Shown here in pieces: positions 5,526 through 18,253 of a stretch of DNA of 20,042 nt (the first letter of the stretch is position 1; each line of letters starts with the position of its first letter). The notes under the pieces are model-generated. The model made no database searches. It saw only the letters and a list, made by a program, of their open reading frames with translations, and was not told where the DNA came from. Source of the DNA: a virus; IMG/VR virus record IMGVR_UViG_3300037628_000085, positions 1 to 20,042 of that record. One strand, 5' to 3'. The position numbers and the translations under genes are program-made.

Positions 5526-6737
5526 CTAACTAGTAGCCTTAGCCTTAGTTCTAATATCTTTAATCTTAGCTAATAAAAGAGTCCTATCAGTTGTTTGCTC
5601 TGCTTGTGCAAATCCTATACCTAATGCATACTTTTGCAAATCAGCTATATTTAATTGAGCAATATTAACTTTCTTAGGTTCAGCTTCCTTAACAGCTTCT
5701 TCTACTTGAACTCCTTTAACTTCTTCCATTTGCTTAGACATAGCATCAAATCTAGCCATCTTTTCATCCATAGCTTTTTCTTTAGCATTCATCCTTTTAA
5801 TCTGTGCAGCTAAATCAGCATCCATAATATAACCTTTGTCTTCTGGAGCTTCTGCTGCTTTTGAAGTTTCTATTTCAATAGCTTCCATTTCAGACTTATC
5901 AGCATGCTTCTTAAAGAAAGTATTTGAAGACTTAGACTCTCTATCAATTTGTTGTAATAGCGTCATGTGCTCAAGTAAATACTTAATAACCATAGATTCA
6001 TTATTACCTAATGGTAAACTATTCTGCCATAAGTATCCAGACTCTACAGTTTTAGTTATCAAACCAGTTGCCAACCCTCTCTTAAATGCTGTAATAACAC
6101 CTTTGTTTGTATTATCATATATCTCTAAGAATCTCTCAGGTTCTTTCTCAGCCTTATTAATTAAGTTAGCTTGTAACATTGCAGGGCTATTATGCTCTAC
6201 TGACATACCTAAATTAATAGACATATCATAAGTTTCGGCACCAGTTAACTTATCAATTATAGCTGCAGCTCTCACCTTAGATTTAGCTACCAAAATAGTT
6301 CTGTTTGCTTCTTTTTCTTCATCAACAACTCTGTATTTAGGCTTACCTCTTTTAAATGGTGATCCTATAACACATTCATGCATTTTAACAACACACCAAA
6401 TCTTTCTTTCCTGAACATTAGATAAATCAAACTGTAACATATCTCCCAATAAAATAGGTTGATACTTAATAATTCCAGTTCGTTCATCAAACTCTCCAGT
6501 AGGAATACCGTATATAATACCAGTATTTCTATCTACTTGTCTTTTGAATGTTGTTTTGGGGGTTTTAATTTGAACGCGACCTATCGCTTCAATAATAATG
6601 ATACCTTCTTGAGCTACCACATCTGGATTATCAAAATTACATATTTTGTTTTCAAATCCATTCTTGTCTTTCATTATGGTATACAAGTCCATACCATTCT
6701 TTGTTTTTGGGATCTTAGTCCCAGTTTCATTTTCCAT
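5526..6737 (-). CDS. Capsid-associated protein of unknown function with SAP/HeH-like C-terminus
   Basis: The 403-aa protein follows the capsid gene as its own transcription unit, with a promoter-like box and leader upstream and a terminator downstream. The N-terminal half (about 30-185) is a mixed beta domain including HECVIGSPFKRGKPKYRV. The region 285-350 is charged and likely coiled coil (MNAKEKAMDEKMARFDAMSK). Residues about 363-400 (IADLQKYALGIGF ... LLLAKIKDI) look like a short helix-extended-helix of the SAP/HeH/LEM kind, often DNA-binding. A protein that binds capsid lattice and DNA, or a head-completion factor, would fit, but I do not recognise the family. Monocistronic expression next to the capsid gene suggests it is needed in high amounts. 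Confidence 0.7.
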   Translation of the reverse strand: MENETGTKIPKTKNGMDLYTIMKDKNGFENKICNFDNPDVVAQEGIIIIEAIGRVQIKTPKTTFKRQVDRNTGIIYGIPTGEFDERTGIIKYQPILLGDMLQFDLSNVQERKIWCVVKMHECVIGSPFKRGKPKYRVVDEEKEANRTILVAKSKVRAAAIIDKLTGAETYDMSINLGMSVEHNSPAMLQANLINKAEKEPERFLEIYDNTNKGVITAFKRGLATGLITKTVESGYLWQNSLPLGNNESMVIKYLLEHMTLLQQIDRESKSSNTFFKKHADKSEMEAIEIETSKAAEAPEDKGYIMDADLAAQIKRMNAKEKAMDEKMARFDAMSKQMEEVKGVQVEEAVKEAEPKKVNIAQLNIADLQKYALGIGFAQAEQTTDRTLLLAKIKDIRTKAKATS

Positions 6738-16501: not shown

Positions 16502-16837
16502 TTAATTGATTTGTAATTGATTAAACTCTCTTGAATATATTTGAGAAGCTTCTCTCCAGATAAGGACTTTACCATCCTCGAAGTTTTGCTTTCTCTCCGC
16601 AGTATCAAATATAATTATATCTACGCGAATATTACCCTTTTTAATATTATTTTTCATCTCAAACTCTAATATGGTTTCAGTCCTGTCAATTACTGCTGCA
16701 CCATAAGTTATCTGTGTTGATGATATATAACCTGCAGGCAAACACATTGCATCTATCTCTGCTTCTGCAAATAACTCCATTTCATCATTACCCCATCGAC
16801 TGTAAAAGTCTATTACTCCTGCTTCTATATTTTCCAT
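16502..16837 (-). CDS. Small unknown protein (111 aa)
   Basis: The protein starts MENIEAGVIDFYSRWGNDEM. It is acidic in its first half and carries beta strands in its second half (RVDIIIFDTAERKQ). Two cysteines at most, no membrane segment, no family recognised. It is separated by 12 bases from the 280-aa gene and by 2 bases from the 82-aa gene, so it belongs to the leftward accessory transcript. It may be an early accessory or anti-host protein, but only its position among such genes suggests this. Confidence 0.6.
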   Translation of the reverse strand: MENIEAGVIDFYSRWGNDEMELFAEAEIDAMCLPAGYISSTQITYGAAVIDRTETILEFEMKNNIKKGNIRVDIIIFDTAERKQNFEDGKVLIWREASQIYSREFNQLQIN

Positions 16838-16839
16838 AA

Positions 16840-17088
16840 CTATTTGATTTTCAGTTGTTTATTCTTAAATTCTGCATATTCCTCTGCATCCTTCTTATTG
16901 TAGAAAAAGGCTATTATTGGACCACCACTTACAGGTTGTTGAGGTCTTTCTATACTTAATCCCCCATTCCTTTTAGCTTTCTCCCTTTCAAAGAAGTTCT
17001 TCTTTTCTATTATAGTAGCTGTATAGTTAAGCATTACACTATAACCTGGAGATGACCCACTTTCTCTTACCTCATATTTACTATCCAT
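16840..17088 (-). CDS. Small unknown protein (82 aa)
   Basis: I take the ATG at 17088 (MDSKYEVRESGSSPGYSVML), because it is directly preceded by the A-rich leader GGTAAATAAAAAAAAT that is found before other genes here. A GTG six codons upstream (17106) would lie inside the 53-aa gene. The protein is basic at the end (FKNKQLKIK), has a mixed strand-helix pattern, and contains FFYNKKDAEEYAEFKN, like the short alpha-beta units in which a strand precedes a helix that monitors a list of residues. No family is recognised. Confidence 0.6.
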   Translation of the reverse strand: MDSKYEVRESGSSPGYSVMLNYTATIIEKKNFFEREKAKRNGGLSIERPQQPVSGGPIIAFFYNKKDAEEYAEFKNKQLKIK

Positions 17089-17095
17089 ATTTTTT

Positions 17096-17257
17096 TTATT
17101 TACCACTCATAGCAAACATAAATGCTATTGTAGTTCCGATTATCATAATCATTACACCCATCTTATGAATAGAATATCCCATTCTATCCAATACCGCTAA
17201 TAAGTATAATACACCTACCGCTAATACTATTGTTACTATTACTCCTATACCTGTCAT
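17096..17257 (-). CDS. Small two-helix membrane protein (53 aa)
   Basis: The ATG at 17257 opens a 53-codon frame ending at TAA 17096-17098. Residues 3-22 (GIGVIVTIVLAVGVLYLLAV) form a strong membrane helix. A short polar loop (DRMGYSIHK) and a second hydrophobic helix (about 33-50, Met/Ile-rich) follow. The leader TTTTAAATAAAAACA before the ATG fits the A-rich initiation signals of this phage. The stop is 7 bases before the next gene. The layout resembles tiny holin-like or membrane accessory peptides of phages, but no family is recognised. It may act in lysis, exclusion of other phages or counter-defence at the membrane (inference). Confidence 0.7.
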   Translation of the reverse strand: MTGIGVIVTIVLAVGVLYLLAVLDRMGYSIHKMGVMIMIIGTTIAFMFAMSGK

Positions 17258-17271
17258 TGTTTTTATTTAAA

Positions 17272-17345
17272 AGGAGAAGGCCCGAATCTAACGGCTACAC
17301 TCTTTCATTGCGAACGAGGATATATCACTTACCTCCACTTCTCCT
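17272..17345 (-). ncRNA. Possible structured RNA element (cloverleaf-like)
   Basis: Read leftward, AGGAGAAG (17338-17345) and CTTCTCCT (17272-17279) are perfect 8-base complements enclosing 58 bases. Inside lies a 4-pair stem GAGG/CCTC, placed as in a tRNA D-arm. A hairpin CTCGTTC/GAAAGAG with one G-A mismatch and a weak GCC/GGC hairpin follow. The total of 74 bases is tRNA-like, but the anticodon loop lacks U33, the T-loop lacks the invariant C and the spacing is short, so it is not a normal tRNA. It starts 8 bases after the stop of the Tad2-like gene and is followed by TTTT. It could be an attenuator, an RNA processing site or a decayed tRNA. Confidence 0.4.
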
Positions 17346-17352
17346 AATTGTT

Positions 17353-17751
17353 TTAATACTCTAATACTATCCAATCTTCTGCTAATATATCACTAGAAGA
17401 AGGAACCCAAGATTTTATATTATTCAACTCATCAACTATTTGCATTTGCGCATGATACTTAACCTCTTCATAATCACTACTAATAATTGATGATTCAAAA
17501 TGAGCAGTACCATCAGCAATCATCTCTCTCAATACTGAATGATCAATAATTCTTTGCTGAAGGTTTTTAGATACCAACTCCGGCAAACAAGACATTCTTT
17601 GAATCCTTTGCTTCTGTGTACTTGCAGGTTTCTCTAAAAACACTAACAACCCTTCACTATTCAATCCTTTACCATTCCACCCTTTACGTAGAATCATTTT
17701 ACCTTCTTTAATAGCCGTTAAAGCCTCTCCAAAATTTACTTGTTTTTCCAT
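17353..17751 (-). CDS. DUF2829 / Tad2-like protein (anti-Thoeris nucleotide sponge family)
   Basis: The 132-aa protein has both halves of the DUF2829 signature. The N-terminal part is NFGEALTAIKEGKMILRKGW followed by NGKG (6-29), and then a strand LLVFLEKPA (35-43). The C-terminal part is NIKSWVPSSSDILAEDWIVL (111-130), with the typical W-x-P-S-x-x-D-x-L-A-E-D-W. Characterised members (Tad2) bind signalling nucleotides such as 1''-3' gcADPR made by Thoeris TIR enzymes and so block host defence; some also bind cyclic dinucleotides. Here about 55 residues (44-99) are inserted between the halves, making it longer than the usual ~80-100 aa. The gene follows a RyR-domain gene by 19 bases and has the A-rich leader AAATAAAAAAA. 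Family assignment is strong; the ligand is unknown. Confidence 0.85.
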   Translation of the reverse strand: MEKQVNFGEALTAIKEGKMILRKGWNGKGLNSEGLLVFLEKPASTQKQRIQRMSCLPELVSKNLQQRIIDHSVLREMIADGTAHFESSIISSDYEEVKYHAQMQIVDELNNIKSWVPSSSDILAEDWIVLEY

Positions 17752-17770
17752 TTTTTTTATTTATTGATTG

Positions 17771-18118
17771 TTATTTTAAAGCATCTACTATTGCACTGAA
17801 CATTTTATCCTTCTTTTGTTGGTATAAAGGCAATAAACCAAAGTCTACCATACAGTGATGTGTCTTCTTTTTTTCATCTTTCTTTAGGCCATATACCCAA
17901 CCATCTGCCTTTTTCTCAGCCATCCAGTTATTATGCATAGCTTCTGGTCCTGCATTATAGTTTGTCAACCTAAATTGAACACCATTAACAGCACTTATCT
18001 TTTGCCAAGCACTTGCCTTATTCCAAGACTTCTGACTAAAATCATCATTCAATTCACACCAAGCTTTATTTGCCTCATGACAAACCTGTGCGATTTTTAT
18101 TACTTTCTCATTATCCAT
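17771..18118 (-). CDS. RyR-domain protein
   Basis: The 115-aa protein carries a RyR (ryanodine receptor repeat) domain at about 61-113. Diagnostic residues are MHNNWMAEKKADGWVYGLKK (N-x-W-M-x-E-K-x-x-D-G-W-x-Y-G-x-x-K), then KTHHCMVDFGLLP and KDKMFSAIV. The N-terminal half (IAQVCHEANKAWCELNDD, then WQKISAVNGVQFRL) is the helical region that usually precedes the domain in phage proteins. Stand-alone RyR proteins occur in many phages; their function is unproven, but comparative studies propose ligand binding related to nucleotide signals. It stands directly upstream of the Tad2-like gene, with an inferred shared role in countering nucleotide-based defence. It is soluble, without membrane helix. 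Family call is strong. Confidence 0.88.
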   Translation of the reverse strand: MDNEKVIKIAQVCHEANKAWCELNDDFSQKSWNKASAWQKISAVNGVQFRLTNYNAGPEAMHNNWMAEKKADGWVYGLKKDEKKKTHHCMVDFGLLPLYQQKKDKMFSAIVDALK

Positions 18119-18127
18119 ATCTATTAT

Positions 18128-18253
18128 TTATTTAATTAATTCCCAAAATGGTATTGCTACATACTTAATTAATGTCAAACTAGCCATCATTCCCAACGTG
18201 GAGAATAAAGCTATCTTACCTATAATTTCTACTACTGTTCCTACTGTTTTCAT
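18128..18253 (-). CDS. Small one-helix membrane peptide (41 aa)
   Basis: The ATG at 18253 opens a 41-codon frame ending at TAA 18128-18130, filling the gap before the RyR gene (9 bases later). The peptide starts MKTVGTVVEIIGKIALFSTL; residues about 8-27 are hydrophobic with small residues and could form one membrane helix, and the end is VAIPFWELIK. Its ATG overlaps the stop of an 18-codon frame upstream (ATGA). It resembles small phage membrane peptides of unknown function. The gene-like spacing on both sides supports that it is translated. Confidence 0.55.
   Translation of the reverse strand: MKTVGTVVEIIGKIALFSTLGMMASLTLIKYVAIPFWELIK

Follow-up and report, generated by a model that had tools for sequence, protein, structure and literature searches.

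A RyR-domain and Tad2-like gene pair in a putative distant crAss-like phage, and the association of phage RyR domains with nucleotide-signal sponges

A preprint of 29 May 2026 describes the action of phage RyR-domain proteins on immune signals of the ADPR type: RyDEP of mycobacteriophage DyoEdafos (gp78, PDB 35TM) cuts 2'cADPR and 3'cADPR as an inverting glycosidase, with H75, W78, H100 and D117 reported as catalytic or ligand residues (PMC13232231). None of eight further RyDEP homologues cleaved these signals despite their high conservation; six bound 2'/3'cADPR and two showed no cADPR-signal binding, so that membership in the RyR family (PF02026) carries no guarantee of a cADPR ligand, while one homologue from a Ruegeria phage and one from a Pectobacterium phage proved to be nanomolar sponges able to inhibit Thoeris (PMC13232231). 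The initial annotation of the locus described here, which took phage RyR proteins for possible binders of a defence nucleotide, was right in this respect; its remark that such a role has yet to be established no longer holds, given that RyDEP and its homologues hydrolyse or sequester 2'cADPR/3'cADPR and inhibit Thoeris. Among Tad2 proteins (PF11195; SPO1 gp34.65, HgmTad2/AcrIIA7, SptTad2, ModTad2), those of the long-insertion type have an insertion between beta2 and beta5 that binds CDNs, apart from the gcADPR pocket (PMC12043709). Acb2/Tad1 (PF24729) and Acb4 (PF13876; PMC11722364) are likewise small phage-encoded nucleotide-signal sponges and stand beside or fused with RyR domains elsewhere, but differ in that their main ligands are CBASS cyclic oligonucleotides.

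The DNA that we analysed (the window) is a whole virus record of 20,042 bases, in which the terminase, portal and head proteins were assigned to packaging families of PHROG. The closest relatives of the terminase, distant at approximately 25% identity, are found in crAss-like phages and related phages of Bacteroidota, and judging from its genes the virus is a distant crAss-like phage. As first annotated, a RyR-domain gene and a Tad2-like gene are neighbours on one strand, 19 bases apart; these coordinates are exact and both products score above their Pfam cut-offs.

17771-18118, minus strand: upstream gene of the pair, a RyR-domain protein (PF02026, RyDEP family) of 115 amino acids, from its ORF, Pfam and PDB matches and model
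17752-17770, minus strand: A-rich spacer of 19 bases between the RyR and Tad2-like genes
17353-17751, minus strand: downstream gene of the pair, a Tad2-like protein (PF11195) of 132 amino acids with a long insertion (approximately residues 31-100)
18128-18253, minus strand: hydrophobic, membrane-like peptide of 41 amino acids (by inspection), 9 bases upstream of the RyR gene
16502-17257, minus strand: three small ORFs downstream of the pair (16502-16837, 16840-17106 and 17096-17257)

From the shared strand and the 19-base gap we infer that the pair is co-transcribed, and the 41-residue peptide may possibly lie on the same transcript as the RyR gene. The three downstream ORFs, which form an accessory-gene neighbourhood, had no significant family in Pfam and other profile searches; a PARP_reg match in an ORF downstream of the pair (E=0.065) fell below the cut-off and was rejected. 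PADLOC and NCBIfam gave no match for the pair, no Acb2/Tad1 (PF24729) or Acb4 (PF13876) was recognised in the window, and the window genes searched included no recognisable NARP1 gene. The 95-base gap at 17258-17352 contains, on the minus strand, a perfect inverted repeat of 8 bases (AGGAGAAG/CTTCTCCT) with T's after it; a tRNA suggested by a tRNA-like outline in this gap was unsupported by ARAGORN, Rfam and the fold z-score, its folding energy being unremarkable.

Both domain matches greatly exceed chance expectation. The window RyR protein matches PF02026 at E=3.1e-9 (37.4 bits, cut-off 27.4), and its sequence matches in the PDB comprise RyR R12 domains, a B. thetaiotaomicron RyR-like protein and phage RyDEP 35TM. 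Its AlphaFold model (pLDDT 96.4) retrieved RyR R12 and related RyR domains as top Foldseek matches (E 0.002 and up, probability 1.00), from a fold library that predates 35TM and holds no match below E=1e-3. Mapped through Aegeus gp81 (L060), which is closely related to the 35TM chain, RyDEP residues H75, W78, H100 and D117 correspond to H62, W65, H87 and D104 of the window protein, and these positions are nearly invariant across the RyR domains surveyed (H62 and W65 kept in 296 of 296, H87 in 295 of 296, D104 in 292 of 294). The protein thus resembles RyDEP in its R12-type PF02026 domain, its four pocket residues and its form as a small stand-alone phage protein. It differs in sequence, with 21% identity to a RyDEP-like protein against 46% to a Ruegeria phage RyR and 45% to a Pectobacterium phage RyR, comparison proteins that come from the same phage groups as the preprint's sponges and are not necessarily the same proteins. 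It also differs in setting, its gene lying beside Tad2 and, as far as seen, in no NARP1 operon.

By sequence, the window protein appears closer to the sponge-type homologues than to the glycosidase. That it is instead a RyDEP-type enzyme converting 2'/3'cADPR to ADPR, while Tad2 next to it serves as a fast-acting sponge, seems improbable to us: the catalytic dyad H75/D117 is present as H62/D104, yet the same high conservation accompanied no cleavage in any of the eight other homologues (PMC13232231), and NARP1 genes were not recognised among the genes searched. Moreover, Q54 of RyDEP, one of the active-site residues tested by mutation, is paired with S42 of the window protein in a weakly aligned region, where serine occupies the column in 286 of 291 domains and the RyDEP-like L060 has Q; near-universal in the clade of the window protein, S42 gives a weak hint of the sponge type.

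The Tad2-like protein matches PF11195 at E=3.5e-15 (56.7 bits, cut-off 25), and its sequence matches in the PDB are Tad2 structures. It shares with the described Tad2 proteins the ligand-site motifs GWNGKG and WxxSxxD...EDW, with invariant alignment columns at F7, G24-W25-N26-G27, W115, S118, D121 and D126-W127, as well as the predicted fold: all 24 Foldseek matches at E<=1e-3 of its AlphaFold model (pLDDT 76.4) are Tad2, including SptTad2 with cGG and HgmTad2 with 1',2'-cADPR among the top ones, HgmTad2 with cGG, and ModTad2 with hisADPR. Its insertion between beta2 and beta5 amounts to approximately 50 extra residues; modelled with low confidence, it is longer than in the solved members (132 residues in all against 101-104), and the pairing with RyR also sets the window protein apart from them. 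A contiguous match to SptTad2 covers residues 3-67, and a relative aligns with 8kbi (HgmTad2) through the SLP insertion; the window protein accordingly belongs to the long-insertion HgmTad2/SptTad2 type, whose SLP-containing insertion it shares, and by analogy probably also binds cyclic dinucleotides through that insertion. Entries of this family are named AcrIIA7 in the PDB (8kbi, 9kzr), and 8kbi shares the long-insertion form of the window protein, which would allow the protein to be a Cas9 inhibitor and no immune-signal sponge at all. We hold this to be very improbable, because the AcrIIA7 protein was also crystallised as HgmTad2 with 1',2'-cADPR and cGG (titles of 8kbj and 8kbk) and the fold matches are dominated by Tad2 structures with gcADPR and hisADPR.

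We surveyed the recurrence of the pair in RyR loci of viral contigs and bacterial genomes, each taken with flanks of at most 10 kb to either side, scanned with profiles for Tad2, the Acb2/Tad1 hairpin and PF13876 and clustered at 90% RyR identity (n=204); genes were counted as adjacent when they lay less than 400 bases apart in the same direction or were fused. A viral-contig search with the window RyR as a single sequence found no relatives, and an alignment query was needed. Tad2 adjoins RyR in 2 of the 204 clusters, the window itself and L135, giving P=0.006 with the window and approximately 0.09 without it. Pfam Tad2 exceeded its cut-off in 1 of approximately 94 whole RyR virus records, and concatenated queries of INPHARED (50,697 phage records, approximately 297 RyR-bearing cultured-phage records among them) found no contiguous RyR and Tad2 genes. 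The exact pair is therefore rare across viruses, and its adjacency taken alone shows no statistically strong recurrence, with L135 as the one independent case.

The association of RyR with sponge families in general is strong and far above chance. RyR is adjacent or fused to the Acb2/Tad1 hairpin in 16 clusters (5 fused) against 1.5 expected (P ~1e-14, n=204), and to Acb4/PF13876 in 17 clusters (9 fused) against 1.7 expected (P ~4e-14, n=204); all ten Acb2-type proteins checked exceed the PF24729 cut-off. At least one sponge partner is fused or within 700 bases in 43 of 210 RyR proteins. PF13876 (gp49), at one point taken as a neutral anchor control, was dropped in view of the literature that makes it the Acb4 family, and a thymidylate synthase anchor yielded five loci only, so 14 other families served as neighbour controls. 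These gave no fusions to RyR and mostly chance-level adjacency (HNH 0 of 14, terminase 2 of 22), with the exceptions of Cpn10 (4 of 4) and SSB (3 of 9), which shared gene order can explain. An unbiased ranking of neighbours showed that structural genes also adjoin RyR in some lineages (12 of 12 and 9 of 9 loci); because gene order is inherited there, the adjacency counts overstate the number of independent events. Mapped on a rough tree of RyR, the association with Acb2 requires 18 changes for 18 occurrences and that with Acb4 18 for 25, upper-end numbers as many forks are unresolved. Where the initial annotation had looked to co-occurrence of RyR and DUF2829 genes, the exact pair thus stays near chance once the window is set aside, and it is with Acb2/Tad1 and Acb4 that the association emerges.

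The fusions are distributed as follows.

L051:4983-5549, Sulfitobacter phage phiCB2047-B (SUFG_00048): RyR fused to the Acb2/Tad1 hairpin (PF24729)
L180, L232, L238 and L297: further RyR-Acb2/Tad1 hairpin fusions
L054:4509-5345, Erwinia phiEa2809: RyR fused to PF13876 (Acb4)
L055:4458-5330, Salmonella phage bering: RyR fused to PF13876 (Acb4)
L093, L110, L130, L158, L234, L269 and L296: further RyR-PF13876 (Acb4) fusions

The RyR-Acb2/Tad1 fusion is a candidate natural two-signal sponge. The RyR-Acb4 fusion is likely to be common in Kuttervirus, many cultured phages there having a RyR match, and the domain architecture suggests what the unexplained extensions described for some Acb4 homologues (PMC11722364) may be, RyR domains taking that place in several phages. 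These associations also bear on whether the window RyR might bind some other ligand, be it a host metabolite, an adenine nucleotide or another immune signal, and lie beside Tad2 by chance in an accessory region. Such a reading would fit the 2 of 204 clusters, the absence of the pair among the cultured phages searched and the two of eight tested homologues that did not bind cADPR (PMC13232231); it appears unlikely to us in view of the conserved cADPR-pocket residues of the window protein, the link of RyR to three sponge families and the 14 clusters with Acb2 or Acb4 fusions. As a separate observation, the RyR domain in L142:9314-10351 follows a long series of repeats (CTFKTGSNCTFTT...) that may form a beta-solenoid.

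One virus lineage carries a slot before Acb4 in which these genes are exchanged, with near flanks approximately 83-98% identical on both sides and L352 more distant at approximately 71-77%.

L135:6050-6820, and matching places in L340, L341, L101, L095, L342, L343, L345 and L377: swap slot upstream of Acb4
L135: Tad2-RyR
L101 and L095: Acb2-RyR
L340: Acb2-Tad2
L341, L342, L345 and L377: Tad2 alone
L343: RyR alone, with exactly the Tad2 gene missing

Since Tad2, RyR and Acb2 interchange in one slot, they likely do related work, and we regard this arrangement as the strongest argument that the window RyR and Tad2 would form a functional pair. Several further features were seen in these families. 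Many Tad2 domains (L135:6053-6200, L009, L013, L028, L062 and others) and, in Pectobacterium phage CB4 (L058:4773-4990), a RyR domain are fused to a short N-terminal module (YxGTKxxxAxP...DGYxSWSPKxxF). A C-terminal tail, DFPLGKAxxxSxEGxCEACQ, is common to RyR proteins (L050, L116, L138, L119) and an Acb4 protein (L135:6822-7286), which suggests domain exchange. In Tenacibaculum phage Gundel_1 a gene for an Acb2/Tad1 hairpin, scoring narrowly over the Pfam cut-off, lies directly upstream of Tad2 (L063:5687-5974 and 5992-6258), and Tad2 is fused to a crAss001_48 domain (PF21825) in Bacteroides phages BS-TP1 and BS162P1 (L061:5584-6303, L062:5671-6297).

We propose, with a probability of roughly 0.7, that the window pair would act as a two-protein nucleotide-signal sink, anti-Thoeris and possibly anti-CBASS, in which RyR would be a sponge and not a glycosidase. 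The Tad2-like protein would sequester Thoeris cyclic ADP-ribose signals in its conserved GWNGKG/S-x-x-D pocket, with its long insertion probably taking up cyclic dinucleotides too, and the RyR protein would bind 2'cADPR/3'cADPR in its R12-type pocket, most likely as a sponge. Made together, the two proteins would leave Thoeris, and perhaps CBASS, effectors unactivated, to the presumed benefit of the phage. Against such a unit count the overlap of the cADPR signals that the proteins would bind, the two of eight RyDEP homologues that showed no cADPR-signal binding, and the rarity of the RyR-Tad2 adjacency, which loses significance when the window is left out. The two-part counter-defence unit of the initial annotation is thus retained as the most likely reading, although not as a widely recurring gene pair.

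The family function of each gene is already known, that of phage RyR included (PMC13232231); within the literature searched, the RyR-sponge cassettes and fusions are new. The RyDEP preprint (PMC13232231) makes no mention of Tad2 and the Acb4 preprint (PMC11722364) none of RyR. More broadly, the literature searched mentions neither the RyR-Tad2 pair nor the fusions of RyR to Acb2 and Acb4 nor the swap slot, although other papers or supplements may do so. An evenly balanced conjecture is that phages assemble multi-sponge cassettes of interchangeable parts, with RyR, Tad2, Acb2/Tad1 and Acb4 as alternatives or stacked together, some with bifunctional RyR-Acb2 or RyR-Acb4 fusions that would neutralise both Thoeris and CBASS signals, the window pair being a crAss-like instance. 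The associations give independent genomic support for phage RyR proteins as part of a nucleotide-signal counter-defence toolkit, and they suggest a testable design in which two sponges for different signals come as one unit or one polypeptide. The cassettes and fusions can also be used to find counter-defence genes by neighbourhood, an unfamiliar gene in the same slot being a candidate.
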